Made by a program: the position numbers and the translations under genes
DNA from: Pseudodesulfovibrio sp.
Lineage (GTDB): Bacteria; Desulfobacterota; Desulfovibrionia; Desulfovibrionales; Desulfovibrionaceae
Direction of reading: 5' to 3'
Length of the DNA stretch: 64,000 bases
Assembly (NCBI GenBank): GCA_016342345.1
Contig: JAEINO010000005.1
Location: 1 to 64,000, forward strand
In this document: positions 26,079 to 44,780 of the stretch, piece after piece
Layout of the letters: the number at the start of each line of letters is the position of its first letter
How positions within the stretch are numbered: position 1 is the stretch's first letter
Notes under the pieces: generated by a model
What the model saw: the letters and a program-made list of their open reading frames with translations, nothing else
Told to the model about the DNA's origin: nothing
The model's database searches: none

Positions 26079-26504
26079 TCAATCGCCGTGACTGGTCAGC
26101 AAATCATGAATACCGATCTGGCCGTTGCGAAGAAGCTTCCGATTCAGGGCCTGTTGCACGGCCTTCAATATTTCCGGTATGGATGCTGGCTTCAAAAGAT
26201 AATCAAACGCACCATGGCGAATATTCTTTATGACATCCTCGGCAGAGACGTGGCCCGTAAGACAGATTATCTCAACATCATGATTTTGTTCCAAAATTTT
26301 CTGCAACGTCTCTTCACCACTCAGACCAGGCATTTTCATGTCGAGCAAAACCACATCAAAATCCCCGTCCTCAAGCTTTTCAAGGGCAGCCAACCCGTCC
26401 GGGGCTCCATCGACCTGAAAACCGCTTTCCTGCAAGAGCCGGATCAGGGTTTTGCGAAAACGTTCCTCGTCATCAACAACAAGAACTCTTGCCTTGGTTT
26501 CCAT
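26079..26504 (-). CDS. Response regulator, receiver-only with short tail
   Basis: 141 residues. Receiver with acidic pocket VVDDEE (10-14), phosphoacceptor D55 (VLLDMKMPG), LTGH and K-P switch residues (LLKPAS). The roughly 20-residue tail has no DNA-binding motif, so it works as a phosphotransfer or protein-interaction partner. Last gene of the eleven-gene minus-strand operon, 9 nt after a histidine kinase. Confidence 0.88.
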   Translation of the reverse strand: METKARVLVVDDEERFRKTLIRLLQESGFQVDGAPDGLAALEKLEDGDFDVVLLDMKMPGLSGEETLQKILEQNHDVEIICLTGHVSAEDVIKNIRHGAFDYLLKPASIPEILKAVQQALNRKLLRNGQIGIHDLLTSHGD

Positions 26505-26513
26505 ATCAACCTC

Positions 26514-27419
26514 TTACCTTTCTATGGGAATGCGAACAGTAAAAACCGCTCCCTTTCCTGGTTCAGAACGCAACAATATGTCTCCCCCAAGCTGATTGAT
26601 GATCCTCAGGCTGACAGACAGCCCAAGTCCTGTCCCTTCTCCCGGGGGCTTTGTCGTATAAAAAGGATCAAACACACGTTCGATTTGGGCTGCGGAAATC
26701 CCTGGCCCAGTGTCACGAATCTCGGCACATACCATTCCATCGTTGCACTGTGTCGTGACAAATATCAGCCCCCCGCCATCCAAAGCCTGAACCGCATTAA
26801 TCAAAAGATTGAGAAACACCTGTCGCAAAAGTGGTGGGTCGGTCTTGATTTTCGGCAAATCATTGCTGAATACCTTGACTATCTGAATATGCTTGGCATC
26901 AGTCTCACGCTCGACAAGCGTTAACATGTCCACAAGAAGTCTGTTCATATCGGCAGTCTGAGTAACGGGACGCCTGCTTCGCGCAAAATCAAGCAACTTA
27001 TGCGTAATGTCGGAGCATCGCTCCACCTGCTGCAGAATAACATCCAGACTTTCCTGAATCTCAGAAACTTCCTCCTCGGTCAAATCCTGCTGGAAGTTCA
27101 TCCGCATCAATTCCGCTTCCTGCATTATTATATTCAGAGGGTTATTAATTTCATGGGCTATGCCCGTAGAGATTTCTCCCAGAGCCAATAATTTCTGCGA
27201 CTGTATGAGTTGCTCCTTGAGTTCCATACGCTCATCGCTGGCATGACCAATCCATCGAGAAAAAGACAAAAGTGAACCCCATAAGCAAAGGATGGCAACA
27301 AAAGCGGCAACAACTCCCGGCAAAGGCCATTTTACAACGACAACCAATATAATCAGAAATGATGCCGGATATACGTACTGACCAAACAGCACGGTCCGTC
27401 TGGCTCGGACCAGATTCAT
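26514..27419 (-). CDS. Membrane histidine kinase, NtrB-type
   Basis: 301 residues. Two N-terminal hydrophobic segments (about 17-50) with almost no periplasmic loop, then a HisKA domain with H-box GEISTGIAHEINNPLN and a HATPase domain with NLLINAVQAL (N box), DTGPGI and GEGTGLGLS. Because it lacks an external sensor domain, it may receive its signal through the membrane or from a partner protein. Its start overlaps the stop of the receiver gene 27416 by ATGA. Confidence 0.9.
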   Translation of the reverse strand: MNLVRARRTVLFGQYVYPASFLIILVVVVKWPLPGVVAAFVAILCLWGSLLSFSRWIGHASDERMELKEQLIQSQKLLALGEISTGIAHEINNPLNIIMQEAELMRMNFQQDLTEEEVSEIQESLDVILQQVERCSDITHKLLDFARSRRPVTQTADMNRLLVDMLTLVERETDAKHIQIVKVFSNDLPKIKTDPPLLRQVFLNLLINAVQALDGGGLIFVTTQCNDGMVCAEIRDTGPGISAAQIERVFDPFYTTKPPGEGTGLGLSVSLRIINQLGGDILLRSEPGKGAVFTVRIPIER

Positions 27420-27814
27420 GAGACTTTCCTGGCATTACGCTTCAACACAGCATGCTCATGGGCATCACGTATCCTTTCGAGCAGATCTTCGATGGAAAAA
27501 GGCTTGAGAATGTAGTCGTACGCTCCATGACTGATACCTTCTATTCCTGATTGCATCGATCCATGTCCCGTAAGCATGATGACTTCAACCTCCTGATGCC
27601 TTTTGCGAATCTCCTTGAGTGTCTCTATACCGCCAAGTCCTGGCATCCTGACATCGAGAATGACCACATCCACAGGAATCACATCCAATGCCTGCAGCGC
27701 TTCCTGGCCGCTCGCGGCCACACTTACATCCACATTCCTTTTCCCCAATCTCCGCTGGATAAGCTTCAGAAAATCAGGTTCATCATCCACCACAAGTATT
27801 CTTATTCTGGACAT
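27416..27814 (-). CDS. Response regulator, receiver-only
   Basis: 132 residues; VVDDEP pocket, D54 in VILDVRMPG, LTGHGS and LKPFS switch. No output domain. The start follows CCAGGAGGAACC and overlaps the 3' end of the kinase gene 27802. Placed between two kinases, it may relay phosphate between them. Confidence 0.88.
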   Translation of the reverse strand: MSRIRILVVDDEPDFLKLIQRRLGKRNVDVSVAASGQEALQALDVIPVDVVILDVRMPGLGGIETLKEIRKRHQEVEVIMLTGHGSMQSGIEGISHGAYDYILKPFSIEDLLERIRDAHEHAVLKRNARKVS

Positions 27815-29481
27815 GGTTCCTCCTGGTCAGGGATAGCGCCAGAGAACGGCAGGTAGAATGTGAAGGTCGCCCCATGGCCCAACTCACTCTGCACTGTGAT
27901 CCTGCCGCCAAGCTTGTTGAGAGTGCTATATATGATGGAAAGTCCCAACCCGGTCCCCTCACCTGTCGGCTTGGTCGTAAAGAACGGGTCAAAAACCTTG
28001 GAAAGCTGATCCGACGGTATTCCCATGCCTGTGTCTTTGACATCCATTGCCACAAATGAACCCTCGACACGGGTCACCAAAGTGATACGCCCATCCTCGC
28101 CGATTGCGTCAATGGCATTTTCCAACAGATTCAAAATGATCTGCTGCACCTGATTCGAATCGGTCGTAAGAAGTGGAAGGCTTTGGTTAAACTTGCATAC
28201 AACCTCAATGCTGCGATGCAAAACTTCATTTTCCAAAAATGAAACTGTCTGTTTGGCGAGCATGTTCAGATCAACATTCTCATGAACAGGTTCCATTCGA
28301 CGAGCAAATCCGAGCATCCGATGTGTCACGGTACGGGCTCGCTCCACATGCCGATCAATGTCGCCTATTGCCTCCACAAGCTCGCCCAGAACTTCGTATC
28401 CATCCAATTCACCGTCATTTATGAGGTCTCGGATCCACCCGGCACTCTCGCGAATGATAGACAACGGATTATTAATCTCATGCGCAACCCCTGCCGCCAT
28501 TTTCCCAAGAGAGGCCATTTTGCTTGATTGCATAACGGCGGCATCCATGACAGCCCGCTCCGCATCTGCCGCCATGAGCTTCCTGACCACGGACGTCACG
28601 GTAAGATACGTCCCTGCAAAAATCATCACCGCACAAACAAGAAACAAGGCATAAACCAGATACTGAGATCGTAGCAAAGGAGTCAGTTCCTCTCTGGGAC
28701 TTTCCACGACAACGAGTCTCCAATCAGTAAGTGCCAAGGACGTTATCCCGGCAACCCGAGTCGCCCCGCGTTCTTCCCATTTGCAAATCTCGACATCACT
28801 TCCTTCCGGATTGGCAAATATCTTTGCCTGAGACAGAACCTTGCCACTAAAGCGCGATGGCGTTTGAAGTTTGCAATCACTGTTGACAAGATATGCATCC
28901 CCCAGCTTTCCGGTACGCGCATTATGAACAAGGGACGTAAAGACATCCGAATCGATAGTGGCTCTGAGTATCCAGGTTCTGCCCGCTTCACGTCTCTTCA
29001 CCGCTATGATGAAATGCGGAAAATTACGAAATCCCATGAAGACATCACTGATATAAAGCCCTTTGAGCATGACCTGATTGAACCAAGCTTCATTCTTGTA
29101 ATTGACATCCCTGAGATCGAACGGGCCACTATATGCTTCATGACACCCGTCCGGCCCTATGACGCCAAGGTCGATAAAAGAACTTGATGTGTTGTGGATG
29201 ATGTCAAAAAGAGCGTTCAGGTACACTTGGTCCGTCATCTCCGCAATTGTATGAGTATTGGCCAGATTCTGAAGCTGCACGACTCTTTCATTGAGAAACA
29301 TGTCAATGGAATCGCGCTTGTTGTTAACGACAAGCCTGAGATTGCTGGTCAACTTCTCTTCGTATGAATGACTGAACTGATCGTGAATGACATACCCCAG
29401 AACAAAGAGAGGTATGAGAGAAAAACTCAAGGTTATTCCAATGAGCTTCCACCTGAGTTTCGTATATGAAGTCGCTATCAT
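27802..29481 (-). CDS. Histidine kinase with dCache-type sensor domain
   Basis: 559 residues from the ATG at 29481, which overlaps the stop of the preceding gene (ATGA). TM1 at about 14-32; periplasmic Cache domain to about 280 with DLGVIGPDGCHEAYSG, YISDVFMGFRNFPHF and LRATIDSDVF; TM2 near 290-310; HisKA with GKMAAGVAHEINNPLS and a HATPase with [10 protein letters not shown]. The sensor region is clearly paralogous to that of the kinase at 40323 (same G-x-RN-x-PHF and LRATI-S-VF motifs), so the two probably bind related small ligands such as carboxylates. Confidence 0.9.
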   Translation of the reverse strand: MIATSYTKLRWKLIGITLSFSLIPLFVLGYVIHDQFSHSYEEKLTSNLRLVVNNKRDSIDMFLNERVVQLQNLANTHTIAEMTDQVYLNALFDIIHNTSSSFIDLGVIGPDGCHEAYSGPFDLRDVNYKNEAWFNQVMLKGLYISDVFMGFRNFPHFIIAVKRREAGRTWILRATIDSDVFTSLVHNARTGKLGDAYLVNSDCKLQTPSRFSGKVLSQAKIFANPEGSDVEICKWEERGATRVAGITSLALTDWRLVVVESPREELTPLLRSQYLVYALFLVCAVMIFAGTYLTVTSVVRKLMAADAERAVMDAAVMQSSKMASLGKMAAGVAHEINNPLSIIRESAGWIRDLINDGELDGYEVLGELVEAIGDIDRHVERARTVTHRMLGFARRMEPVHENVDLNMLAKQTVSFLENEVLHRSIEVVCKFNQSLPLLTTDSNQVQQIILNLLENAIDAIGEDGRITLVTRVEGSFVAMDVKDTGMGIPSDQLSKVFDPFFTTKPTGEGTGLGLSIIYSTLNKLGGRITVQSELGHGATFTFYLPFSGAIPDQEEPCPE

Positions 29482-32093
29482 GACTCTCTTCTCCAATTGG
29501 ATGAACACTCATTGTCGTTTTGCATAAGATTCAGAATAACCATGATATCCGTATCAAACTTGTCCCTGTATTTCTGACAGGCCTTGTTGTCGAACATGAC
29601 CATGTCAATCTGCCTGGTATGAACCAGCAGATATCCTGTCACGGCAAGGGCTCGTTCCACGGCCTCTTTAGAAACACCCTCGATCCTGGCAAAAAGCGCA
29701 TCATCCCTGACCTCGGCAATGAATCCCTGTCGTTCCAGCACATCGGCAATCAGCCTTGCACGGATCATGCGACGCGACTTGTCGGCAGCCCCTCCCTTGA
29801 ACTGGAAAAAAGCGTAGTTTCTGTCCGGTTCGTCTCCGGCAAAACCCTCGACAGTACAGAAATGGAATCCAAAACGGGACTGAAGATTGCAATAATTCCT
29901 GCTAACGATGAAATAGTTGCGCTCCGCCATCTCGTTCGCCATTCCCGGTGCCAATGACGGATTTTGAGCCGCTTCGGAAATAATGGACATGAATCCACCA
30001 GGATCAACAGGGGGAGGCCCTTCCCAGGGAATTGTCGTCATTCCGACCCAAAGGGCCCTCATGGCATTGGAAGTAACGCACCGAAGATCAACATATTCGT
30101 CTTCATTTGAAACCGAAGTCCCGCCGCCAAGGTCAACCAGCCAATATTGCAAAGGCCCCTTGTCCACCAGTCTGCGGGCTTTTGCTCCGGGCCTGTCACC
30201 ATCCCGGAACATCTCAGCCACAGCCTTTTCATGACAAAATCTCGTAATGTCATGCAGCGAGACACAGTTCTCCGGAGCAAACTCCGGCGAATCTGGATTC
30301 GTCAACGTAAGTGGCGTAATGAATTGAAGAGTACGACACAGTGCAGTGACAACTTCATTGTTTCGCGGCGCAACCTGAATCCTGTTCGACCCGGGCATCT
30401 GATCATCCCGGCGGCCAAGATACACTGTACCAGTCTTCGCATTAACTGTGACTACGCCAACCCGTGAAAGTCTATCAACAGCACCGGGCGCACCCACGAG
30501 AGCCGGAATGCCGAATTCCCTGGCAATGTTTGCCAGATGACCAGTCGCATTGCCAAATTCGGCAATAAGAGCTGCGGCCTTTGGAAGCAGGGCCGACAGC
30601 CTCGGTTTGGCTGTACGCACCAACAAGATTGCACCTTCCGGGAAACGGAGCATGTCCTCATCCGTTTCGACCATGAACACATGCCCGCTGGCAATGCCGG
30701 GACTTGATGGAATACAGTCGGTCAAGATTGCAAAAGGAGCATTCTTGTCTATTTCCGGCAAGGATTCAGGCTCGCCCTGCACCTCGCAGACAGCCAAGGG
30801 ACGGCACTGAAGAATAAAGATTCTCCCGTCATGATCCTGCGCCCATTCTATGTCCTGAGGACAATCGAAATGGGCCTCAATACGCAATGCAATTCCGGCA
30901 ATCCAGGCCACGACATCATTGGAAATGGACGGTGCAGAACATTCATTCCCAAGCAATCTTTCCTTGTTGGTGCCACCTGTTGCAGAAACCACATGCCGCC
31001 ATTTTTTGTCCACGATAACGGCTTTGCGAATAAAGAGTGATTCCCGATCAAGCACCCATGTATCGGCATTCTCGGTGCCATCAACTATTGCGCATGGAAG
31101 CCCAGGCACTGCACTGACAATAAGCGCATCTTCATGTTTTCCCACAGGATCTCGGGTGTATATGACCCCGCCAGCCGTTGCATCAATCATTTCCATGCAA
31201 CCGACACACATGATCACCCCGTCCTCTCGCAATCCACGGCTCAAACGATAGGTCATGGCTGTAGCCGAATACATGCTCGCCACAACGCTCCTGTAGGATT
31301 CCAGAACATTGTCAGGACGCACCCCGAGAACGGAGAGGAACTGCCCCGCGAAACTGGCTTCACTGGAATCTTCGCCCAACGCACTGCTTCGTATGGCCAA
31401 TCGAACGGTATCCTTGTCTGCGGAGAACGCATTACAGCCGGTCTCAATGGCCTCCTTCAATTCTTGCGGCATGGCAGCAAGATCGATCGCGTGATGTATA
31501 CTCGCTTCAAGAGCATAGAGTTCGTCGAGTTCTATACTATCCGTAATCTGTATAAGACGATTAATTTCGTCATCGAGTCCCGTGCTGTCCATAAAAAGTC
31601 GAAACGCGGAAGCCGTTATGGAGAACCCCAGCGGAACTCTGACTCCCAGTTCTCCGCAAACCTCTCCAAGCAGAGCCATCTTCGACCCTGCTTCTGATAT
31701 CGATTCAGCATTTATCTCGTCCAAGGCCAAAACAAGCGGCCCCTGCTGCCGATCGGCATGATCAACAACCGCTGTTTCCATCTCCAGAACAATGCGGTTG
31801 AACGTGTCCTTGAGAGCATCATACTTGCCAGGATTCATTCGACACAAACGTTCGATCATTTGCCGAACACCTGCCGCAACCTTGAGGCTCTGCCCTCTGA
31901 CATGAGACATTCCAAACAGACTGCCGGATTGCGATTCTTCGGTCATTTCTGCCATTATTTCGAGCGCCTTGTTATTGGCAGCAAGCAGAAGACGAAAATT
32001 ATCGCATCTGGCGAGGAATCGTTCAGAGGAATCATCCTTTCCATCAGTTGGCTTACTGATAAAGCGTGATATTGCATTAAAGATAGCTTGCAT
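29478..32093 (-). CDS. PEP-synthase-like phosphohistidine protein, no PEP-binding barrel
   Basis: 871 residues. About 130-460 is a pyruvate phosphate dikinase N-type ATP-grasp domain (AESISEAGSKMALLGEV, AIRSSALGEDSSEASFAGQF, ATAGGVIYTRDP, QDIEWAQD, ILQCRPL). About 480-560 is the swivelling phosphohistidine domain; the active His is kept at about residue 519 (GNATGHLANIAREFGIPA). The C-terminal TIM barrel that binds PEP or pyruvate is absent; instead there are 300 residues of unknown fold. A role in phosphorylating a partner or unusual substrate is inferred, since it sits between receiver and kinase genes in a transporter operon. Confidence 0.8.
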   Translation of the reverse strand: MQAIFNAISRFISKPTDGKDDSSERFLARCDNFRLLLAANNKALEIMAEMTEESQSGSLFGMSHVRGQSLKVAAGVRQMIERLCRMNPGKYDALKDTFNRIVLEMETAVVDHADRQQGPLVLALDEINAESISEAGSKMALLGEVCGELGVRVPLGFSITASAFRLFMDSTGLDDEINRLIQITDSIELDELYALEASIHHAIDLAAMPQELKEAIETGCNAFSADKDTVRLAIRSSALGEDSSEASFAGQFLSVLGVRPDNVLESYRSVVASMYSATAMTYRLSRGLREDGVIMCVGCMEMIDATAGGVIYTRDPVGKHEDALIVSAVPGLPCAIVDGTENADTWVLDRESLFIRKAVIVDKKWRHVVSATGGTNKERLLGNECSAPSISNDVVAWIAGIALRIEAHFDCPQDIEWAQDHDGRIFILQCRPLAVCEVQGEPESLPEIDKNAPFAILTDCIPSSPGIASGHVFMVETDEDMLRFPEGAILLVRTAKPRLSALLPKAAALIAEFGNATGHLANIAREFGIPALVGAPGAVDRLSRVGVVTVNAKTGTVYLGRRDDQMPGSNRIQVAPRNNEVVTALCRTLQFITPLTLTNPDSPEFAPENCVSLHDITRFCHEKAVAEMFRDGDRPGAKARRLVDKGPLQYWLVDLGGGTSVSNEDEYVDLRCVTSNAMRALWVGMTTIPWEGPPPVDPGGFMSIISEAAQNPSLAPGMANEMAERNYFIVSRNYCNLQSRFGFHFCTVEGFAGDEPDRNYAFFQFKGGAADKSRRMIRARLIADVLERQGFIAEVRDDALFARIEGVSKEAVERALAVTGYLLVHTRQIDMVMFDNKACQKYRDKFDTDIMVILNLMQNDNECSSNWRRES

Positions 32094-32110
32094 GGTTTTC
32101 CTCCGACCTA

Positions 32111-32494
32111 TTAATCTGATTCAACGAGTCGGTTCTTGATCGCATCCAGCACCTTGAAATATAGTTCATCAGTCCCGACAGGTTTCAGCATGTAGTCGAA
32201 TGCCCCACCCCCCATACCTTGAATGAGTGCTTCGGAATTCGCATGTCCGGTCAAAATGATCACAGGAATATCCGGCGCAATGGCCTTGATCTTCTTGAGA
32301 GTCTCGATACCGCTCATGCCTGGCATCATGACATCAAGGACCACAGCATCGAACCGGGTCGATTTTACAGCTTCAATAGCCTGCTTGCCCGTGGCTGCGG
32401 TACTGACATCCACATTCCTGCGTGCAAATCTTCGCGTATAAACGCTCAGAAAATCGCTTTCATCATCCACCAGCAACAACCGAATTTTTTTCAT
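32111..32494 (-). CDS. Response regulator, receiver-only
   Basis: 127 residues from the ATG at 32494 behind GGAGGAATGAG; the longer frame to 32536 lacks a site. Pocket VDDES, D54 in VVLDVMMPG, LTGHAN, and LKPVG switch. It is close in sequence to the receiver at 27416 (both have NVDVS and ASG/ATG-K/Q segments), suggesting duplication. No DNA-binding domain. Confidence 0.88.
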   Translation of the reverse strand: MKKIRLLLVDDESDFLSVYTRRFARRNVDVSTAATGKQAIEAVKSTRFDAVVLDVMMPGMSGIETLKKIKAIAPDIPVIILTGHANSEALIQGMGGGAFDYMLKPVGTDELYFKVLDAIKNRLVESD

Positions 32495-32526
32495 CTCATT
32501 CCTCCAGGGAACGATTCTCATGAGGA

Positions 32527-32548: not shown

Positions 32549-32624
32549 CCCGGACTGAGGAGGATAAGGCGGCTGGGGGCATGCCTTATACCATTTGCAC
32601 TAAACCGATACCTAAAAATGGCAC

Positions 32625-33173
32625 TCAATAAAGCACATGACGCAGCTCGGCAACCAACGGAGCAGCGGTCCAGAAAAACAATAAAAGCAAAACAGCGGTC
32701 ATGATAACGAGAAGAACTGACCGAATCTTCCCTATGCCAAAAGTTTTCACGAGCCCGATTCCCACCAATATTGCTCGAAACGGTTCCATGATCATGGCAA
32801 GACCCGGAATCCATGAAATGACCATGACTGCGCCACTAGCGTAGGCAAAGACATTAAAGACCTTGCCGTAAGGCACCTTGTTCTGAGTTGTCATGCCAAG
32901 AAGACTGAATGTAAAAACAGCACCGAGCGCAGGCATGACGATGGCATTGACCATCATGATCACACCCATTTTAAGGGAATTTTCAAAAAAATATGTCATG
33001 CTGACTGAACAATAGAAAATGCCGGAAATCATGAGAAACAACAGTGCTCGCCTTGATCCGGTTTCCGAAGCAACGCTTTCATAAAATTTCGCAGGCGATC
33101 GAATGATGGCACTAATGGTTTCGAGGTATTCCCTGATGCCCATCTTGCAGTTGGGTTCACAAACAGCTTCCAT
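32625..33173 (-). CDS. YIP1-family membrane protein
   Basis: 182 residues with five hydrophobic segments and a cytoplasmic N-terminus (IREYLETISAIIRSPAKFYESV) typical of bacterial YIP1/DUF1282 proteins. The start follows AGGAGATAATC. The function of bacterial members is unknown; in this operon it lies beside the small membrane protein and the transporter, so it may form part of a membrane complex with them. Confidence 0.75.
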   Translation of the reverse strand: MEAVCEPNCKMGIREYLETISAIIRSPAKFYESVASETGSRRALLFLMISGIFYCSVSMTYFFENSLKMGVIMMVNAIVMPALGAVFTFSLLGMTTQNKVPYGKVFNVFAYASGAVMVISWIPGLAMIMEPFRAILVGIGLVKTFGIGKIRSVLLVIMTAVLLLLFFWTAAPLVAELRHVLY

Positions 33174-33182
33174 GATTATCTC

Positions 33183-33335
33183 CTAGCCTAAATATTCTTT
33201 CATTCCCTCGGCAATGCCCCAACAGAGCATGACGACCGTGAAGATGAAAAGGATTCGTCTTTCAGTTCTCTTTGAAAAATACGTTGCACCGTTTTTGTAA
33301 ACGAACATCCGTTCTTTGCTTTCATTCTGTTCCAT
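33183..33335 (-). CDS. 50-residue single-pass membrane protein
   Basis: Hydrophilic N-terminus (MEQNESKERMFVYKNG) then one membrane helix (RILFIFTVVMLCWGIAEGM). The start is preceded by AGGAGAACGGTC. It lies between the DASS transporter and the YIP1 gene, all on one strand, and may be a small transporter subunit or regulator. It is too short for standard ORF filters, but the good ribosome binding site and operon position support it. Confidence 0.72.
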   Translation of the reverse strand: MEQNESKERMFVYKNGATYFSKRTERRILFIFTVVMLCWGIAEGMKEYLG

Positions 33336-36193: not shown

Positions 36194-36228
36194 TATCAAC
36201 CTCCTTGATGTTCCAACGCATTTCAATT

Positions 36229-36651
36229 TCATCTCTCGACCGCATCAGCCATGCGGGCGGAAAGAATTTTTTGCTTGTGCAAAATCACCTTCTCAAAAGC
36301 CTCTTCCGCTTTTCTGAGAAAATCCTTCATGCTCACCGGCTTGATAAGAAAATCCAAAGCCCCGAGCTTGAGTCCCTCAACAGCGGATTCCGTGGTCGCG
36401 TGTCCCGTGAGGATGACAACCTCGATCAACGGATGATTCTTTTTAATGCACTGCAACGTTTCCATTCCGTCCATGCCGGGCATCTTTATATCGAGAAATA
36501 TTACGTGCACTTCTTCGGTTTTCAACAATTCGAGAGCCTCTTTACCGGACGTTGACGTGAGCACATCAATGCCGAGTTTATCGAATAATTTTTTTGTGGT
36601 GCTGAGCAAACGCTCTTCATCATCTACAAGCATTATCTTCATTTGTTCCAT
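36229..36651 (-). CDS. Response regulator, receiver with C-terminal helix
   Basis: 140 residues; VDDEE pocket, D54 in IFLDIKMPG, LTGHATTES, IKPVS switch, and a 25-residue Lys-rich helix at the end. First gene of the minus-strand operon. A near-perfect sigma-54 promoter lies 117 nt upstream (36768-36783). Confidence 0.88.
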   Translation of the reverse strand: MEQMKIMLVDDEERLLSTTKKLFDKLGIDVLTSTSGKEALELLKTEEVHVIFLDIKMPGMDGMETLQCIKKNHPLIEVVILTGHATTESAVEGLKLGALDFLIKPVSMKDFLRKAEEAFEKVILHKQKILSARMADAVER

Positions 36652-36767: not shown

Positions 36768-36783
36768 AGCAACTGGCGTGCCA
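36768..36783 (-). promoter_or_regulatory. Sigma-54 promoter of the eleven-gene operon
   Basis: On the minus strand TGGCACGCCAGTTGCT, an exact match to the consensus TGGCAC-N5-TTGCW with GG-N10-GC spacing. The predicted start is about 105 nt before the first start codon (36651). Confidence 0.85.
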
Positions 36784-37140
36784 ATCATAACTTTCTTATT
36801 TTAATGGATATAATCTTGCAATATAGGGTATTGCCAGATAACTTTTACGTGTATCGAAAGGAATCTGGCCCATCATGCGAAAATCATACGAAAATAAACA
36901 GGCAGCTTAAAAATCGAAAGACTTGAAGCTTTCAGAAACACCAATTTTATGCAGTCAGTACTCACTTGTATTATTGACTTTTTGAGAACTTCATGAGCAT
37001 AAAATACATGAATCCCCGAATAGATTGGTCCACCCAGCAGAAAACGAAACTCCAATTGAACGCATTATTCAAAAAAGACATGATTAAAATGCAGGAATTC
37101 TAACAGAACAAAAAAACTCAATCCCTGTTTTCAAAATCCC

Positions 37141-37156
37141 GGCACAGTTTATGCTG
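37141..37156 (+). promoter_or_regulatory. Sigma-54 promoter of the 1011-residue gene
   Basis: CGGCACAGTTTATGCT: GG (37142-37143) and GC (37154-37155) separated by exactly 10 nt; the -24 block GGCAC is perfect and the -12 block reads ATGC. It lies 42 nt before the start codon. Confidence 0.7.
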
Positions 37157-37197: not shown

Positions 37198-40100
37198 TTG
37201 CCAAAACATCATCTTTACTACGATAAAAACGATTACAAACTTATTGAAATACTTAATGATGTTTTGACAAGAAAGCTGGACCACTCCCACTTCAAAACAC
37301 TTCTGACGCCATATCTCAGACCCCATGGAATCAAGGAACTGGCTGCATCCAGAAGAATTCGTATTGCGTATGCAATCATGCACCTGCTCAGTTCGCTCAC
37401 ATCCGATCAGGCATCAGAACGAATCAAGGCTCTCGTGGCTTTGCGCGACGATGTGCTGACTGCCGCGCGCAGCAACATGCGCAATAATCGCGCCCGCGTG
37501 TTGATTCAAATCATCAAGGAACTCATTCGTGCAAAAGGAAACAGCAGAGCGCAACTCGAATTGGCTCATGACTTCCGCACTGCGGCCTTGGGAAAAACCA
37601 TTTTCCTACGAGAACAGCTCAAAAAATACCATCTCCTCGAAATGCCCGAAGAATGGAACCAGGTCGCTTTCGATGACAGAGTGCATGACGCCAACAGCAA
37701 GGGGCGAAAATCCGCCACCCACCTCATCATGGACGCTTGGGTCAAAGGCATCCGAAATTTAACGGTTGTCTATTATGATATATTGGAGCCGACTGTAGCC
37801 AAGGAGTTGTTTGCCGCAGCCAGAATTTTAGGAATAAGAGTACGAATCGGCATTGAATACCGAGCACAATTCCGTGGGAAATATGTTAAAATTGTCTGGA
37901 ACCCAGGTGCACTACAAGACGATTCTGACATCCGTGGTTTTTTCCAAAGAGATGCCGTTATGGAGTTGATGGCCCAAGGCAAAGAGGTTCAGGAATACAG
38001 AACAAAATATGTTGAAGCTGTCACAAATGAATTCAATGATGTCCATCGCAAATCAATTTTTCTGGAGTTTGGCGTGCAGTTGCCGCCCATCAAATACTGT
38101 GACGTTGCTCGGACGGTTGGGACCGGCCAGCCATCCCTTTTGCATCTCGGCAAACATATCCATGAGATTGCGCTCCCTCTATTCAAGGATCGAGTCGCCA
38201 TACTTGGAGAAGATTATTCTACGGCAGACTATGACGGAATGGCATCCATTGCGATGCAAGTGGAATCATTGGATTCACTTGATGCAGACACTTTTATCGC
38301 ACGTTATCTCGTGCCAGAAGAAAACCCCGGAATTCATGATCCTGATATTCCTGGCAATGATTCAAACAAGCCAAACCTGCTTCAACTGACACCGTCAGAA
38401 CTGACAACTCGTCTTCGCAGCGCATACCACACGAGTCGACTGACACTCAATCTTGCCGATCTCAAATTGGAAGATGCGGTTGAAATTCTTTATGATTGCA
38501 ACGGCAGAATCACTCACTTCGAAATGTTCAATCTCAAAACCATGACAGATGGTCAGGTCCATCGACGCAAACCTCTCAGTCTGCTGCAACAGGCCATCAA
38601 CGAACAAAATGCCGTTGCACTCAAGCGAATGATCCGCAACTGCATTGAACACGTAAGCCAATCCGACACTCCTGACACAATAGATAGAACGGAAAAACTA
38701 TCTGAAATATTAAATAATTTTGATATTTTAAGAAACAACTACAAAAGAACTACACTCAAAACAAAAATCGGAAGCGGTTCCACGGGACAATCCACCAGAA
38801 CCCATGGCATGGGGTTTGTCGTTGTAGAAACACTTCCCGTGAGGGAACAAAGACAAATCCGCAACCGGCCTTCGGGATATTGTCTTCCTGTTTCGGCCAG
38901 TGCCACTCAAACAGTAGAATTCATTCCTCCACCAAAAAAAACCGGCATTATCAATACTATAGTGCAACGCGCAAGTCGATTGCCAGGGCTGCGTGTTCTT
39001 TTTTGCCAGAAAATAAACTGTTGGCGTATCGCCGGATTCAATGTCGAAGACGAATCTTGCGGCAATGTGATCACATTGGGAGGCGTGAATCGAGATGCCG
39101 CCAATGAACTGAGTCTTTACACAGAGTATAAGACGGACCAACAACGTCCTTCTCTGGAATACCTTAATAGCACCATGAAAAACTTCCTCAAGGTATTGAT
39201 CGGATTCATCCCTGCATTTCTCACTTTCTACCTGACTAAAGACTGGTGGGTTTTGGCATACCTCGGTGGTATTATATGGTTTTCAATTACAGGCCTCAGA
39301 AATATCATCCAATCCGTACTCGGAGGAGGAGGCCTGCACCGCTCCCCGTATTTGCGATGGAATGATTACGTCAGTTGGGACAGAATTTCAGATTCCCTTC
39401 TTTACACAGGCTTTTCGGTTCCCTTGCTCGACTGGTTATGCAAATCTGTATTTCTTGATCAGGGATTCGACATCAACACCGGAACAAATCCGATACTGTT
39501 GTATACCATCATGGCCATAACAAACGGTATATACATCTCAAGCCACAATCTCTTCAGAGGACTTCCCAAAAAAGTAGCCTTTGGGAACTTTTTCCGAAGT
39601 GCATCATCCATCCCCATTGCCATCGTCTTCAACTTTGGCATCAGTATGATTCTGGGATTCTTTGAAGTTTCAGGCATAAATGGCATCCTGCAACTTTGGG
39701 CCGCCGTCATTTCAAAACTTGCCTCGGACTGCGTTGCCGGAGTCATTGAAGGGCTCGTTGATCGAAGTGATAATATTGCCATGCGTCACTGGGATTACTC
39801 GGAAAAAATGAAACAGGTATTCGAGACTTTTTCTCATCTCGAAATATTATTCCCGAACAAGGACATGCTCAAGACCTTGAATGAACCAGGGAAATTCATC
39901 GAGATGTCTCAGGAAGCCAGAACAAATTACGTCCCCATCATTATCGCCAATGCATTGGATTTACTCTATATAAAGATGTACCAACCACGAGCAACAGAAG
40001 CACTTCGACAAGCTATAACAAGCATGACCAAGGATGAACGCGAAGTTTTTCTGGCATCGCAACGCATTCTGGCTGAAGAAAAGGAAGTCGCTCGCCTCTT

Positions 40101-40233
40101 CGTGGACGGGCTCGTTGGTCGAGAATTTTCCAAGGCCCTTTCCTTCTATTTGCTCAGGCATCGGACATACCTGATACAAATTGAAAAAATGGTTTCGACT
40201 ATTCAGCAACGTCAAGACAGAAAGCTTGCCTAG
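37198..40233 (+). CDS. 1011-residue membrane protein of unrecognised family
   Basis: Starts at a TTG with AAGAGG upstream; the next in-frame Met is 59 codons later. About 1-560 is soluble and mainly helical, with a compact segment IRVRIGIEYRAQFRGKYVKI near 215-235; 560-660 is basic and includes FCQKINCWRIAGF. Hydrophobic segments fall at about 664-705, 738-752, 763-782, 805-825 and 829-850, followed by a 160-residue soluble C-terminus rich in charged helices. I do not recognise the family. It has its own sigma-54 promoter and is divergent from the signalling/transport operon, so it probably belongs to the same regulon. Confidence 0.8.
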   Translation: MPKHHLYYDKNDYKLIEILNDVLTRKLDHSHFKTLLTPYLRPHGIKELAASRRIRIAYAIMHLLSSLTSDQASERIKALVALRDDVLTAARSNMRNNRARVLIQIIKELIRAKGNSRAQLELAHDFRTAALGKTIFLREQLKKYHLLEMPEEWNQVAFDDRVHDANSKGRKSATHLIMDAWVKGIRNLTVVYYDILEPTVAKELFAAARILGIRVRIGIEYRAQFRGKYVKIVWNPGALQDDSDIRGFFQRDAVMELMAQGKEVQEYRTKYVEAVTNEFNDVHRKSIFLEFGVQLPPIKYCDVARTVGTGQPSLLHLGKHIHEIALPLFKDRVAILGEDYSTADYDGMASIAMQVESLDSLDADTFIARYLVPEENPGIHDPDIPGNDSNKPNLLQLTPSELTTRLRSAYHTSRLTLNLADLKLEDAVEILYDCNGRITHFEMFNLKTMTDGQVHRRKPLSLLQQAINEQNAVALKRMIRNCIEHVSQSDTPDTIDRTEKLSEILNNFDILRNNYKRTTLKTKIGSGSTGQSTRTHGMGFVVVETLPVREQRQIRNRPSGYCLPVSASATQTVEFIPPPKKTGIINTIVQRASRLPGLRVLFCQKINCWRIAGFNVEDESCGNVITLGGVNRDAANELSLYTEYKTDQQRPSLEYLNSTMKNFLKVLIGFIPAFLTFYLTKDWWVLAYLGGIIWFSITGLRNIIQSVLGGGGLHRSPYLRWNDYVSWDRISDSLLYTGFSVPLLDWLCKSVFLDQGFDINTGTNPILLYTIMAITNGIYISSHNLFRGLPKKVAFGNFFRSASSIPIAIVFNFGISMILGFFEVSGINGILQLWAAVISKLASDCVAGVIEGLVDRSDNIAMRHWDYSEKMKQVFETFSHLEILFPNKDMLKTLNEPGKFIEMSQEARTNYVPIIIANALDLLYIKMYQPRATEALRQAITSMTKDEREVFLASQRILAEEKEVARLFVDGLVGREFSKALSFYLLRHRTYLIQIEKMVSTIQQRQDRKLA

Positions 40234-40322
40234 AACTTTCAGGCGCACCATTGGTGGAGTGATCTGAAGAGCATTGCTATCGCACAGGTGATCACCGGTT
40301 TGCTCTTTACACAACGACTCAC

Positions 40323-41999
40323 TCAGGAACGGATGCCAGGCAGGTGTATGGTAAAAACCGACCCCTTGCCCTTTTTGCTTTCCACCGTAAGCTCTCCGCC
40401 AAGTGAATCAATGATGCTATGGCAAACCGAGAGTCCCAATCCAGTACCCTGCCCAGGGCTCTTGGTTGAGAAAAACGGAAGAAATATTTTTTCCAGGTTG
40501 GCCGAATTGATACCTGTACCATTGTCGGAAACCTTGATGACCGCGTTCCCGTGCTCATCAACGTCTCCGTTCACGCAGACCTCTCCCCCCTCAGACCCGT
40601 GCCGTTCAATTACGGCATGAATGGCGTTGTTCAGGAGGTTGACCATAACCTGCTGTAATTGCCCAGGATCAACTTCAATATCAGGAGTTTCTGGCTCGAC
40701 GTCACAACGCATGGATATACCGTGAACCTTGGCCTTCTTATCTACCAAAGCACCAACTTCTGACAAATAGGAAGCCAGCGCAACTGTTTGAAGTTCAGGA
40801 GCCTTGGCCCTTCCGAAACTAAGAATTTCTCTGGTTATACCGGCACATCGATCAATTTGCAGCTTAAGTTGGTCTGTAATTTCAATGACTTCATCTCTGG
40901 CAGCAGGATCTCCTCCATCAGCAAGCGAATCCTCCAGGACCAAATCCAACAAAGCCAGATCACTTTTCATGATTTGAAGCGGATTATTTATTTCATGTGC
41001 GAACCCTGCAGACATCTCTCCAAGCTCCGCAAGGCGGGCCGCCCGCATAAGTTGGCTTTCAAGCAACTGCACGGCACTTGCCTGACTTTGAAGCGTCTCG
41101 CAAATTCGTCGACTGACAATGAGTGCAAGGACAACAATGAGTGCTCCACCGCTGATCAATATCAGGAGAATCGTATATCCGGCCATGGTTGTAGAGCGAA
41201 AGGCGTCTTCCCGCTTTTGCCTGACAATAAGACGCCATTCCCCGTCATTCATCAAGGCAGACGCAAAAAGGAAATCAACACCGTTATCCTCCCCCATGAA
41301 CGTCATAATACTTTTGGTTTGCACCGGGTATGCATACGAGTCCGACTCAAGAAGCTCTCCGCCAGAACGACGTTCGGTCTGAAAATGTGCACCGGAATCA
41401 AGAATGTAGGCCTCGCCAGTATCCCCTATATTTACTCTTTCAACAAGTTTTCTGAAAACACTGGAATTGATTGTCGCCCTGAGCACCCAGGATTTTCCAC
41501 CAATACGTCGCGAAATCGCCACCACAAAATGTGGAACATTGCGATACCCAAGAAAGACATCACTAACATAGTATCCGTGTTTCAACGCTCGACGATACCA
41601 AAAAGCGTCACCATAGTTTTTCCCTGCCAATTCATATTCTCCGACATATGAAACCTGCACCCCATCTGGTGCTATAAGACCAATATCATTGAAGACATTT
41701 TCAGAGGCTTGTAGCATCAGTGTAATCGCCTTGTGACCCGATTGACGCGTCAACTGCTCAGATGGAATAATATCAAGATATGTTTCAAGGTCTGCCCTTC
41801 GCTCCTGAAGAAAAGAGGCTATCATGTCCCTATGATCTACTGCCGACTGCTGAATGGCACTAACAGCCAATCTTTCTGTCGTGTTCGAATAGGAATAATA
41901 TCCCATGGTGACAGCCAGCAACAATGGAATAGCCGGAACAGCAATCATGGACACAAGAAGCAATTTATGAACTCCGCGATACAACTCTTCTTTCTTCAT
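40323..41999 (-). CDS. Histidine kinase with dCache-type sensor domain (second paralogue)
   Basis: 558 residues from the ATG at 41999 behind AGAGGGTGTC; the longer frame to 42119 would overlap the sigma-54 promoter. TM1 at about 15-33, periplasmic Cache domain with DIGLIAPDGVQVSYVG, YYVSDVFLGYRNVPHF and LRATINSSVF, TM2 near 290-310, then H-box GEMSAGFAHEINNPLQ and HATPase motifs NLLNNAIHAV, DNGTGI, GQGTGLGLSV. The sensor domain matches the kinase at 27802. It is transcribed from its own sigma-54 promoter (42115-42130). Confidence 0.9.
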   Translation of the reverse strand: MKKEELYRGVHKLLLVSMIAVPAIPLLLAVTMGYYSYSNTTERLAVSAIQQSAVDHRDMIASFLQERRADLETYLDIIPSEQLTRQSGHKAITLMLQASENVFNDIGLIAPDGVQVSYVGEYELAGKNYGDAFWYRRALKHGYYVSDVFLGYRNVPHFVVAISRRIGGKSWVLRATINSSVFRKLVERVNIGDTGEAYILDSGAHFQTERRSGGELLESDSYAYPVQTKSIMTFMGEDNGVDFLFASALMNDGEWRLIVRQKREDAFRSTTMAGYTILLILISGGALIVVLALIVSRRICETLQSQASAVQLLESQLMRAARLAELGEMSAGFAHEINNPLQIMKSDLALLDLVLEDSLADGGDPAARDEVIEITDQLKLQIDRCAGITREILSFGRAKAPELQTVALASYLSEVGALVDKKAKVHGISMRCDVEPETPDIEVDPGQLQQVMVNLLNNAIHAVIERHGSEGGEVCVNGDVDEHGNAVIKVSDNGTGINSANLEKIFLPFFSTKSPGQGTGLGLSVCHSIIDSLGGELTVESKKGKGSVFTIHLPGIRS

Positions 42000-42114
42000 G
42001 ACACCCTCTTGCGCGATACTTGCTAAATAGCTTTTTAAATTAATCCATAATTTCAGGATAATACCAATATCTTGCAACAAACTCATACTGCTCAACGCGG
42101 CACAACCCCTATTT

Positions 42115-42130
42115 AGCAAACCTTATGCCA
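42115..42130 (-). promoter_or_regulatory. Sigma-54 promoter of the 40323-41999 kinase
   Basis: On the minus strand TGGCATAAGGTTTGCT: GG and GC exactly 10 nt apart, with perfect TTGCT at -12. It lies 116 nt upstream of the kinase start codon. Confidence 0.8.
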
Positions 42131-42138
42131 GAAATGTG

Positions 42139-42166
42139 TTGACAAGAAAGCTCGTGGGGACATAAC
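42139..42166 (+). promoter_or_regulatory. Sigma-70-like promoter of the AAA+ activator gene
   Basis: TTGACA (42139-42144), 16-nt spacer, CATAAC (42161-42166). About 70 nt before the start codon. No -24/-12 element was seen on this strand. Confidence 0.5.
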
Positions 42167-42233
42167 GGCAAAGGTATAGTGTCATTTCATGTAATCATGG
42201 CAACCACAAACACCTTGGCTCTAAGAGGACAGC

Positions 42234-44780
42234 ATGCCTGAAATTCATAGAGAAAATACTCCCTGGAAAAAAAGGTTCATTTTATTTTTCCCCGCCATGT
42301 CAAGAAAATTGGGACTCCGGGGAAAATTACTGCTTGCTCTTTTGCCCTCCATTGTGGGGATACTTCTTGTCGCCGGATATGCCTCGCACAGGGTGTCCGA
42401 AGAATTCGTTGATATCGCGCTTGCACGCACTGCCAAAATGCACACTTTGGCCATCGTCCATGAAGTGGAGCAATACATGAAAGGATGCAAAGCCGACCTG
42501 CTTTTCTTCGCCCACGAGGATATGCGGTCGGAATCGCTTCGCTCTGCGCTGAAAAACAAACTGCAATCCGGCGGTAATTCCTATTTTGAAATGGCATACC
42601 TCCCAGCGACAGGCGGAAAACCTGTTGTTCTGGTACAACGAAATGGGAAAATCCATGAAATCAGCGTCACCGACTATGGCAGAATACAACCGAATCCTCT
42701 TCTTGAACTTGACAGAATAAAAGACCTCAAAAAAGGTGAAGTGCTCCCTTCCCAGGTTTTGGAAGTGACCTATCCCCTGCCAACGGAACAAGCATCAAAC
42801 CTTCACATCCGCACACATGTCATCCGGTTTTATACATATTTCCCAGGCAACAACGATACTCCTCCAGGCATTCTCTTTCTTTCCATCCAAGCATCCCAAA
42901 TTCGCAACATACTGTCCCTGTATAACTCAGAACTATCGCCATTATGGGCTTTTCCCAGAAGCGACGAACTCCGGTTCAGCTATCTTCTGGACAAAACTGG
43001 CTGGATTCTTTTTCAATCAGAGGACTACGAAGACAAGAACAAGGAACTAACTACGTTCCTCGCCCGAAAAGACTATTACGGCACACTGGGCAGACAAGGA
43101 CAACCTGCGGCCTTCAGACCCAATGAAAATCACACCCGGTACTGGAAAGCCTTCAAAGAAATAACAAATAATAGAAGCGGCTTGGAAAAAATTGCTGAAA
43201 ACAATTCCTCTGGATCGTCCGTAAAATCATTCCTTTTTTCCTATTCTCCCATCAAATTCCAGAGCACGCCCTCTGGCGACCCGTTGATTTACGGAGGCAT
43301 CGTTTTCGTGGACCGAAGTCAGCTTCCCATCATTGCTGGATACAAATTTTTTGACGTAATGCTCCTTGTCACAGTCGGGTCCATCACCCTGATTTCCATT
43401 CTTATATTCTGGTTCGGAAGGATTCTGACCAAGCCCATCCGAATCCTCGCAACAAGAATGAACGATCTGACGACACTGGACGCTCTGGAGGAAATCGACC
43501 TTCCTTACAGCGGATTCGACATAGACATGCTCCAACGAGCCATCAACAATATCATAAGACGTGTCAAAAAGCAGGTCGTTGAAATCATGGCAAAGGACGA
43601 GGCCATTTTCAATGTCAACAAACGAGAACAGATTCCTCTCACACGCGAATTGGAAATTCTCGCCGAAGGTGAACTGAGTCTCATTCCCGAGATAATAGGA
43701 CAAGGCTCCGTCATATCTAGCCTGAAAACCAGCATCCTGAAAGCGGCTCAAGCCAATGTGGATGTCCTCGTTTCCGGCGAAACAGGCACAGGCAAGCAAC
43801 TAGTGGCTGAAGCGATTCACAACCACGGCAATCGAAAGGGTCAGCCCTTTGTTTCCATCAACTGCGGTGCTTTGGATGAGAACCTCCTGCTCGACGCATT
43901 ATTCGGACACGTCCAGGGCGCTTTTTCGGAAGCCAAGACAGACCGAAATGGTGCGTTCATCGAAGCCAACGGGGGTACCTTGTTTCTGGATGAAATCCAG
44001 TCAGCTTCTCCCAAGGTCCAGCAATCCCTTCTCAGAGCCATTGCATCGAGAAAAATAAAGCCACTTGGCAGCGACAGGGAACAGGATGTCAATGTCAGAA
44101 TCATCGCCGCCACCAACGTCGACATACCATCGTTGATCGAACAAAAAGTGTTTCGTGAAGACCTGTATTACAGGCTCAAGGTCATATCAATTGCAACCCC
44201 GGCTTTACGGGAACACCCGGAAAACATCCCCCTGCTCAGTATTTACTACCTCAAACAAGCCGAGCAACTGGCCGAACGAAACGGCCTCGGCCTGAGTAAG
44301 GGAGCCCTCAACAAGCTGATATCCTATCGCTGGCCCGGCAACGTCCGCGAACTGGTCAACAACATCACGAGAGCGGCAGTCATGACAGAAACCGATGTCA
44401 TCCAGGCAGAGGACATCCGGCTCGAATCTGATGCCACTTCTGGAAATGAATCCTCTATTGCTCCGGTTACTCCCCAGTCAACAACAACTGATAATGACCA
44501 AAACGAAATCGCAAAATCCATACCTGAGGGAAAACACAATGCCACGGTATCCGAAGCCTACGCACACAACGACTCCCTGCTCAATGAAAGACAAGGCACG
44601 GCTTGGCCACAAATTCGCAAGACGGGTACAGTCACACGCAAGGAATATCAGGAAATCGTCGGAGACAGACTCCCCACACGCACCGCCATATATGACCTAC
44701 AGGACTTTGTAAGACGCGGACTTCTGATCAAACAGGGAAAGGGGCCTTCCACGAGATATGAAGTCACTAAAAAGGAATGA
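42234..44780 (+). CDS. Membrane-bound sigma-54-type AAA+ activator with degenerate GAFTGA loop
   Basis: 848 residues. TM1 at about 30-48, a periplasmic sensor of some 310 residues (Cache-like), TM2 at about 367-390, HAMP, then an AAA+ domain with Walker A GETGTGKQ (about 515), Walker B GGTLFLDEI (about 580) and the arginine-bearing FREDLYYRLKV. The sigma-54-contacting L1 loop reads GAFSEA instead of GAFTGA. The C-terminus is not a Fis helix; it is a winged-helix-like segment (VTRKEYQEIVGD, TRTAIYDLQDFVRRGLL). Membrane-anchored activators with their own sensor are rare. Its surroundings suggest it controls the three nearby sigma-54 promoters, but the changed loop makes this uncertain. Confidence 0.82.
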   Translation: MPEIHRENTPWKKRFILFFPAMSRKLGLRGKLLLALLPSIVGILLVAGYASHRVSEEFVDIALARTAKMHTLAIVHEVEQYMKGCKADLLFFAHEDMRSESLRSALKNKLQSGGNSYFEMAYLPATGGKPVVLVQRNGKIHEISVTDYGRIQPNPLLELDRIKDLKKGEVLPSQVLEVTYPLPTEQASNLHIRTHVIRFYTYFPGNNDTPPGILFLSIQASQIRNILSLYNSELSPLWAFPRSDELRFSYLLDKTGWILFQSEDYEDKNKELTTFLARKDYYGTLGRQGQPAAFRPNENHTRYWKAFKEITNNRSGLEKIAENNSSGSSVKSFLFSYSPIKFQSTPSGDPLIYGGIVFVDRSQLPIIAGYKFFDVMLLVTVGSITLISILIFWFGRILTKPIRILATRMNDLTTLDALEEIDLPYSGFDIDMLQRAINNIIRRVKKQVVEIMAKDEAIFNVNKREQIPLTRELEILAEGELSLIPEIIGQGSVISSLKTSILKAAQANVDVLVSGETGTGKQLVAEAIHNHGNRKGQPFVSINCGALDENLLLDALFGHVQGAFSEAKTDRNGAFIEANGGTLFLDEIQSASPKVQQSLLRAIASRKIKPLGSDREQDVNVRIIAATNVDIPSLIEQKVFREDLYYRLKVISIATPALREHPENIPLLSIYYLKQAEQLAERNGLGLSKGALNKLISYRWPGNVRELVNNITRAAVMTETDVIQAEDIRLESDATSGNESSIAPVTPQSTTTDNDQNEIAKSIPEGKHNATVSEAYAHNDSLLNERQGTAWPQIRKTGTVTRKEYQEIVGDRLPTRTAIYDLQDFVRRGLLIKQGKGPSTRYEVTKKE

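Follow-up and report, generated by a model that had tools for sequence, protein, structure and literature searches.

Positions 26079-44780 of a 64,000-nucleotide stretch of DNA from Pseudodesulfovibrio sp. (GenBank assembly GCA_016342345.1, contig JAEINO010000005.1), the whole of which is called the window here, raise a question: do the genes packed there form a self-contained island of sigma-54-dependent signalling and transport, as an earlier reading of the sequence (the original prediction) had it, and what might such an island do for its host, probably a sulfate-reducing bacterium? The region holds fourteen genes, namely an eleven-gene operon on the minus strand, a gene for a 1011-residue protein (plus strand), a histidine kinase gene (HK3, minus strand) and a gene for a sigma-54 activator (plus strand). 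Judged by comparison with related genomes, the island is real and conserved, and its invariant core is a DASS-family anion carrier beside a protein that joins a receiver to a CBS region. We regard it, with opinion evenly divided, as the Desulfovibrionaceae version of clusters that combine DASS transporters, two-component systems and CBS proteins, in which the carrier would be gated by phosphorylation and by CBS ligands and the activator would set expression. Ten operon genes were identified from open frames and Pfam matches and the eleventh, of 50 codons, from the sequence. The genes are listed here, beginning with the operon in its own order.

36229..36651, minus strand: RR1, single-domain receiver, operon gene 1 (Pfam Response_reg, 2.3e-29)
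35294..36232, minus strand: RR-CBS, a receiver followed by a CBS region (Pfam Response_reg and CBS)
33411..35261, minus strand: DASS-family anion carrier with an N-terminal extension of ~160 residues (TIGR00785, 225.1 bits against a cut-off of 198.6)
33183..33335, minus strand: membrane protein of 50 residues, single helix (translation; one hydrophobic segment)
32625..33173, minus strand: Yip1-like membrane protein with four hydrophobic segments (Pfam Yip1, 30.2 bits against a cut-off of 28.6)
32111..32494, minus strand: RR3, single-domain receiver, start at ATG 32494 (Pfam, 9.2e-29)
29478..32093, minus strand: phosphoenolpyruvate (PEP)-synthase-like protein with ATP-grasp, phosphohistidine and unmatched C-terminal domains (Pfam PPDK_N, 4.1e-75; PEP-utilizers, 3.6e-15)
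27802..29481, minus strand: dCache-type histidine kinase, start at ATG 29481, two hydrophobic segments (Pfam HATPase_c and HisKA)
27416..27814, minus strand: RR4, single-domain receiver (Pfam, 1.1e-32)
26514..27419, minus strand: second operon histidine kinase with a short membrane anchor (Pfam HATPase_c and HisKA)
26079..26504, minus strand: RR5, single-domain receiver, last operon gene (Pfam, 4.7e-30)
37198..40233, plus strand: 1011-residue protein, PHP-like fold and long helices (structure model, Foldseek)
40323..41999, minus strand: HK3, dCache histidine kinase, start at ATG 41999 (Pfam dCache_1, 46.3 bits against a cut-off of 45; HATPase_c)
42234..44780, plus strand: sigma-54 activator (Pfam Sigma54_activat, 7.9e-60)

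Open frames and Pfam thus confirm the predicted layout of one AAA+ activator among an eleven-gene operon, the 1011-residue gene and a Cache kinase. The inventory of receivers required one correction: there are five without a DNA-binding domain, as had been said, and these five include RR-CBS, which had been counted a second time. No DNA-binding or other output domain was matched by Pfam in any of them (127-312 residues). The operon kinase at 27802..29481 reaches 31.1 bits for dCache_1, below the cut-off of 45, and Pfam matched no sensor domain in the second operon kinase (26514..27419). Segments homologous to the 50-residue gene are present in some relatives. The HK3 frame had been listed from TTG 42119, upstream of its own predicted transcript start (~42104); in-frame ATG codons follow at 42086 and 41999, and the latter was chosen as the start, being preceded by a GAGGG-like sequence and being the point from which relatives align.

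How widely is this arrangement shared? Loss of the neighbourhood in related genomes had been named beforehand as a result that would speak against the island; the neighbourhood is conserved in 23 of the 35 same-genus genomes, from which carrier loci were fetched, eight of the others having no carrier and the remaining four lying outside the carrier search. In nineteen same-genus loci (L139-L157) gene order and orientation are unchanged for the 13 larger genes, and a twentieth (L178) ends at a contig edge. Two further loci (L158 and L159) have a one-strand order of HK3, RR1, receiver-CBS, DASS, Yip, RR3, PEP-synthase-like, kinase, RR5 and 1011-residue gene; L159 shows part of HK3, the remainder of which appears with the activator in L249. 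In L175 the operon lacks the 1011-residue gene, and HK3 and the activator lie ~6 kb away (L248). Across 39 Desulfovibrionales loci, which were selected for carrier presence and in which receivers were assigned by best hit and are possibly swapped among themselves, RR1, receiver-CBS and Yip genes were found in all 39, HK3 in 37, the PEP-synthase-like gene in 36, the dCache-type kinase and RR5 in 35 each, RR3 and the activator in 34 each, RR4 in 33 and the second kinase in 30.

The core extends beyond the order. At E 1e-150 or better, the carrier (52-78% identical) is present in 16 of 395 genomes of the phylum, including that of the window, and 17 genomes of other families in the phylum have the same core, with carrier identities of 51-80%. 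These 17 genomes supplied 21 loci, comprising all 19 other carrier matches and two loci from a family search; the carrier frame is interrupted in one (L305), and another (L325) ends at a contig edge. All 60 fetched carrier-selected loci (39 from Desulfovibrionales and these 21) have, close to the carrier and on its strand, a single frame with both a receiver and a CBS region. Outside Desulfovibrionales, an HK3-like kinase accompanies the carrier in 11 of 15 loci of one set and 6 of 6 of another, and a Yip gene in 7 of 15 and 6 of 6, respectively. In 2 of the 15, and in all six of the other set (most of which were picked for that feature), the carrier adjoins extra DASS genes that come with kinase, receiver and CBS genes of their own. 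Four loci (L302-L305) are superclusters, with at least three DASS genes within ~25 kb and kinases, receivers, CBS or PEP-synthase-like genes between them.

Another important question is whether the -24/-12 promoters proposed for the island are anything but chance matches. The four promoters considered are the following.

36768..36783, minus strand: sigma-54 promoter of the operon, TGGCACGCCAGTTGCT, exact consensus, in 20 of 20 relatives
37140..37155, plus strand: sigma-54 promoter of the 1011-residue gene, CGGCACAGTTTATGCT, a GG-N10-GC site in 20 of 20 relatives
42115..42130, minus strand: sigma-54 promoter of HK3, TGGCATAAGGTTTGCT, in 20 of 20 relatives
42139..42166, plus strand: sigma-70-like promoter of the activator, TTGACA-N16-CATAAC, from the sequence; conserved

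A loose match means little: with two mismatches allowed, the window has 38 -24/-12 sites against 41.7 expected, and because this count equals chance, such a match is uninformative alone. Stricter patterns are rarer. TGGCACN5TTGCW occurs with zero mismatches once in the window, at 36768-36783, and TGGCAYN5TTGCT occurs 17 times in the 4.15-Mb genome, two of them inside the island, against 3 for the reversed control. With score weights taken from the -24/-12 consensus (maximum 15.2), the RR1 site scores 14.2-15.2 and the HK3 site 13.2-15.2 across the 20 same-genus relatives; the plus-strand promoter reaches 13.2 in the window, against 12.2-13.2 in relatives. The latter is weak by itself: the best regional score is 12.5 or higher in 3.8% of mononucleotide shuffles and 11.5 or higher in 24%.

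The matter was decided by conservation and not by single-site scores. GG-N10-GC sites precede the same three genes, RR1, the 1011-residue gene and HK3, in all 20 relatives, which bears out the claim of a -24/-12 promoter before every unit. The distance from site to gene is 51-74 bases for the 1011-residue gene (57 in the window), ~120-127 bases for HK3 (~125 in the window) and ~65-70 bases for RR1, the leader of which is ~60 bases longer in the window. When the window and 14 relatives were aligned, the spacer between the -24 and -12 elements proved variable and the elements nearly constant, as befits a working promoter. When dyads were counted without a preset motif, GGCA-N6-TTGC, together with overlapping dyads of this element, ranked first in each of the two intergenic regions (21 of 21, the window included). 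Among 16 loci of other genera, 12 have a site scoring at least 13 ahead of HK3 and 14 have one ahead of RR1; of the five loci that have the 1011-residue gene, three have one ahead of it. These counts are given without a shuffle control. By this comparative evidence, the three predicted sigma-54 promoters are conserved and probably functional. The coordinates first given for the plus-strand promoter were off by one (37140-37155, not 37141-37156), and the sigma-70-like promoter ascribed to the activator is present in the window and conserved in relatives, where it has a TTGACA-N16-AATAAC-like form.

Which protein would act at these promoters? The island activator has hydrophobic segments at residues 32-50 and 375-393 that flank an unmatched domain of ~320 residues and thus looks membrane-spanning; a weak HAMP match and an AAA+ domain with a GAFSEA loop are also present. 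Pfam matched no receiver domain in it and, over the cut-off, neither a Fis domain nor any other after the lid; the C-terminal segment is conserved in nine relatives and, by eye only, has a winged-helix look. Among the 34 activators in the 39 Desulfovibrionales loci, the loop reads GAFSEA in 20, GAFSDA in 9, GAFTEA in 3, and GAFHEA and GAFTQA in 1 each. A published counterpart is DVU0151, the only enhancer-binding protein of D. vulgaris without an annotated Fis helix, for which a winged helix is supported via orthologs and which has GAFSEA and a long N-terminal region of no known function (PMC4641369, 2015). Its predicted regulon, DVU0150-DVU0146, is labelled 'transmembrane transport', and Dbac_2039 is named as an ortholog (PMC4641369). 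The passages of that paper covered here thus describe a protein like the island activator in being a sigma-54 AAA+ activator with GAFSEA and no Fis helix, divergent from a sigma-54 promoter and with a transport-type regulon; unlike it, the island activator faces 13 further genes, and the same passages are silent on membrane segments. Dbac_2039 appears to be the activator in L238 (genome G079), a relative at 41-43% located two genes from a DASS gene.

The family reaches well beyond the island. Relatives of the activator at E 1e-120 or better occur in 130 of 247 Desulfovibrionales genomes. Sixteen further activator loci (L230-L245) include eight with a directly adjacent PEP-synthase-like gene and no DASS gene near (L231-L234 and L241-L244), one with a PEP-synthase-like gene ~6 kb away (L236), three with DASS genes (L237, L238 and L245) and four with neither (L230, L235, L239 and L240), which showed no probe match or a distant kinase or receiver only. 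Activators without DASS neighbours indicate that the family is not tied to the island alone. In the genome of the window, a 4.15-Mb draft, the sigma-54 activator domain has 27 matches, of which 25 are strong. This genome also encodes a second activator of the same family (45%; G000:C71:48166-50903, L230); between it and the TauE/SafE exporter gene that it faces lies a strong -24/-12 promoter (50888-50903). The window itself has a further sigma-54 AAA+ domain at 50992-51486. On the island's flanks lie, on one side (45538-47186), genes for a dinitrogenase FeMo-cofactor-type protein and a ParA/MRP-like NTPase with ferredoxin motifs and, on the other (23489-25072), a BCCT betaine/choline-type transporter.

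Alignments of the two intergenic regions brought out TTGC[CG]NGAT half-sites, which are candidates for activator binding; in the window they lie as follows.

36813..36839, unstranded: candidate activator site upstream of the operon promoter, an imperfect inverted repeat ATCTTGCAA-N9-TTGCCAGAT
42009..42077, unstranded: candidate activator half-sites TTGCGCGAT (42009) and ATCTTGCAA (42069), near HK3

The inverted repeat begins 30 bases upstream of the -24 element of the operon, and one half of it, like one of the pair of HK3 half-sites, fits only the looser pattern TTGCNNGAT. TTGCSNGAT was counted in the two sets of 21 intergenic regions: one set, of 7.1 kb, has 21 copies spread over 17 regions, and the other, of 4.7 kb, has 15 copies in 14 regions. 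The density is 2.9 sites per kb upstream of the operon promoter and 0.11 per kb in the remainder of the loci; the enrichment of 26- to 28-fold in the discovery regions is biased, the motif having been derived from them. In twelve loci of other genera, which were not used for motif finding but several of which had been viewed before the pattern was fixed, the density is 1.67 against 0.20 sites per kb (8-fold), with sites in 10 of 24 upstream regions.

The carrier is assigned to DASS by a curated cut-off (TIGR00785), and its residues 166-605 align with the core of VcINDY (E 1.3e-30). It resembles VcINDY and other DASS/SLC13 carriers (PDB 4f35, 5ul7) in this core and in the TPPN motif, which is kept in 58 of 59 proteins of the carrier group (one gap), and differs from VcINDY in its N-terminal extension and in the replacement of SNT by SDH, of SNT by ADG and of GSPPN by GGARN (50 proteins) or GAARN (9). 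These counts concern 59 distinct sequences, matches under 60% coverage or with stops being excluded. An Arg is conserved in hairpin 1, and two other DASS groups of the clusters (36 and 9 sequences) also have Arg at this place and altered SNT positions, each differently. The SNT motifs of VcINDY hold Na+ and the dianion, and we read the altered motifs of the carrier, as a warning, as a possible change of coupling ion or substrate. Twelve solved sequences match the carrier: nine are di- or tricarboxylate carriers, VcINDY first, two are SLC13A1, a sulfate carrier, and one is a phosphate carrier.

Do the receivers act on the carrier itself? The best evidence that they may do so comes from natural fusions. 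At L247 (9826-11931) a single protein of 701 residues has a receiver at 35-144 and a DASS domain at 258-697, and unbroken frames of 697 and 696 codons encode such a fusion in G436 (C82) and G573 (C22). Matches over the same fusion length in G390 (C95) and G626 (C52) have stops inside.

The PEP-synthase-like protein is like PEP synthase (PDB 9dae, 2ols) in its ATP-grasp and phosphohistidine domains, the latter with NATGH in the window, and unlike it in lacking a matched PEP/pyruvate-binding domain (Pfam and NCBIfam coverage) and in having an unmatched C-terminal domain. No family was found at E 1 or better for its last 301 residues, and a model of this domain, built from six sequences and of low confidence (pLDDT 65.5), had no PDB match at E 0.001. 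Relatives of the domain occur in 78 of 198 genomes of the phylum, with up to 11 matches per genome (e.g., G298). The role of this protein is the weakest part of the mechanism proposed below.

For the 1011-residue protein, no Pfam family exceeded the cut-off. At E 0.001 or better, its structure model (51 sequences, pLDDT 82.5) matched no more than four PDB entries, each of them a PHP phosphoesterase or RNase AM (3o0f, 3e0f, 9etk, 2yb1); with 3o0f the match is partial (E 3.5e-06, target TM-score 0.63, root-mean-square deviation 7.2). The protein resembles a degenerate PHP fold in this model, and from strands 157-235 and a DDHVHD-like motif we infer that the fold sits in the N-terminal half; the long helices at ~658-860 are taken as membrane helices. 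PHP phosphoesterases typically have complete His/Asp metal-binding motifs, including TDH. By eye, the first metal His is Arg in the window (R161) and H in 44 of 51 sequences, and the TDH position reads YYD in the window and YYN in 40 of 51. The island protein thus resembles these enzymes in fold and, unlike them, has apparently decayed metal motifs and an added large helical half. At least 519 stretches encode relatives, and the 80 kept of these are mainly deltaproteobacterial or Desulfobacterota, with few others. We considered whether it is a universal signalling protein and rejected this: of 76 loci (L063-L138), almost all of them outside the genus and several confined to short contigs, 9 have a receiver within 1.5 kb, and even the most frequent neighbour cluster within 5 kb is shared by no more than 13. 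A supposed fusion of a receiver or kinase to this protein in G043 was likewise discarded, the 2013-codon frame being a GC-rich extension without a Pfam match and the receiver lying in another frame. The gene is divergent in the genus and in L214-L216 and lies downstream, on one strand, in L158, L159, L222 and L224; it is widespread on its own in Desulfobacterota and probably joined the island more than once.

Is the gene set new? The original prediction knew of no described system with it, a claim that fails: clusters of DASS, two-component and CBS genes were published in 2025 (PMC11887813), and the activator type is described in PMC4641369. In Desulfosarcina variabilis, the former reports a 30.5-kb cluster that encodes many two-component systems and CBS proteins together with DASS sulfate transporters, which are abundant and formed constitutively; related clusters bring the total to 26 species, and the type is widespread among sulfate reducers (PMC11887813). 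As far as the passages covered go, the authors propose that Cache kinases sense sulfate and that WalR-type regulators and a second CBS level take part, draw promoter binding, and name sigma-54 only for activators of catabolic modules (PMC11887813); the same passages contain no mention of PEP synthase, pyruvate phosphate dikinase, phosphoenolpyruvate synthase or a receiver domain. Like these clusters, the island has a DASS carrier, a CBS protein, several two-component proteins and Cache kinases (HK3 over the dCache_1 cut-off, one operon kinase below it, none in the third). Unlike them, it has five receivers without a matched output domain in place of WalR-type regulators, and the island or its relatives have sigma-54 control, the PEP-synthase-like protein and the receiver-DASS fusion, none of which those passages mention for the Desulfosarcina cluster. 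The searchable open literature, exclusive of subscription papers and supplements, gave no description of the island or of a receiver-DASS fusion. As far as our searches reach, what is apparently new is the union of a DASS/two-component/CBS cluster with a DVU0151-type activator in one sigma-54 island, the receiver-carrier fusion, the output-less receivers, the altered carrier motifs, the apparently membrane-spanning activator with its candidate site, the unmatched C-terminal domain of the PEP-synthase-like protein and the degenerate PHP-like 1011-residue protein. The other part of the original prediction, a sigma-54 island serving anion uptake under signalling control, is well supported by conservation and by the receiver-DASS fusions.

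How might the island work? In the mechanism that we propose, the two Cache kinases would sense an extracytoplasmic solute and phosphorylate the receivers, and RR1 and RR-CBS would act on the DASS carrier as gating subunits, without binding DNA. The CBS part may read an adenylate such as AMP, ATP or adenosine phosphosulfate (APS). The activator would span the membrane and sense its own external ligand, and a winged helix in it would bind the TTGCSNGAT sites and drive the three sigma-54 promoters. The PEP-synthase-like protein may pass ATP-derived phosphate via its phosphohistidine into the module or read energy charge. The substrate would be an anion, with sulfate as first choice, though we rate the probability of sulfate somewhat under one half. 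In its fullest form, which we consider less likely than not, the phosphorelay would end at the transporter and not at a promoter: output-less receivers and receiver-CBS would gate an atypical, possibly H+-coupled DASS carrier, the PEP-synthase-like protein would link the module to energy charge, and a one-component sigma-54 activator in the membrane would sense the outside directly.

Several observations weigh against this reading. Both SNT motifs are replaced (SDH in 59 of 59 group proteins, ADG in 58 of 59, with one gap), and therefore neither Na+ coupling nor sulfate is safe. The carrier is found at 74% identity or more in only 38 of 247 Desulfovibrionales genomes, and any match at E 1e-60 in 50 of 247, so it is not the general sulfate uptake system. 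The activator has GAFSEA in place of the GAFTGA loop, transcription of HK3 is predicted to start upstream of both of its candidate half-sites, and the 1011-residue gene is present in only 27 of the 39 carrier loci. In the passages covered of the Desulfosarcina study, the constitutive formation of the DASS transporters does not suggest tight induction, and the response regulators are called WalR type and drawn as binding promoters (PMC11887813). A rival reading is purely transcriptional control, in which kinases would sense external sulfate, receivers would pass phosphate to a DNA-binding regulator and the amount of carrier would vary. The scheme is what that study proposes for the relatives, and sets of kinase, receiver and AAA+ genes with an NtrC look do lie nearby outside Desulfovibrionales (L298, L306, L311 and L313); however, the island receivers have no matched output domain, its local activator has no receiver domain, and in relatives a receiver is fused to the carrier. 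We consider this scheme unlikely here.

The close pairing of the carrier with a receiver-CBS protein at every fetched locus would also suit a transceptor, that is, a carrier that reports its substrate to the kinases and receivers instead of being gated by them. With both VcINDY-type SNT motifs replaced, transport has possibly been lost or changed, and CbrA, with transporter and kinase in one polypeptide, is described as a transceptor in the passages covered of PMC13022988. Against this stand the retained TPPN motif (58 of 59) and DASS core (TIGR00785 over the cut-off) and the conserved Arg, which suggests an anion site; such a role seems to us quite improbable. A different doubt concerns the substrate, which could be an organic anion (C4-dicarboxylate, citrate or sulfonate), the island then serving uptake of carbon or of an electron acceptor and not of sulfate. 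The patchy distribution of the carrier and the nine di- or tricarboxylate carriers headed by VcINDY favour this view, which the two SLC13A1 sequences and the phosphate carrier among the same twelve counter. In the passages covered of PMC11887813, clusters of like make-up surround genes annotated as sulfate transporters, and those of PMC5840216 count Dbac_2041, the DASS protein of a related cluster, among putative sulfate transporters; we place the organic anion on the unlikely side. The latter source, as far as covered, recalls that high-affinity sulfate uptake in sulfate reducers has long been known to be switched on only at low sulfate, and gives the DASS genes HRM2_38230 and HRM2_38300 of D. 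autotrophicum HRM2 as highly expressed at low sulfate, with HRM2_38300 elsewhere said to be preferred in excess sulfate (PMC5840216).

A regulator of sulfate-dependent uptake has been proposed in PMC11887813, and a demonstration was not found in the passages covered. The island that we have returned to here, with a phosphorelay that may end at its carrier, is a bounded gene set with sharp predictions concerning the promoters, the activator site and two carrier-contacting proteins. With it one could test directly whether receivers can gate a secondary transporter and whether a sigma-54 activator spans the membrane. Even with a substrate other than sulfate, the principle of control would merit such a test.

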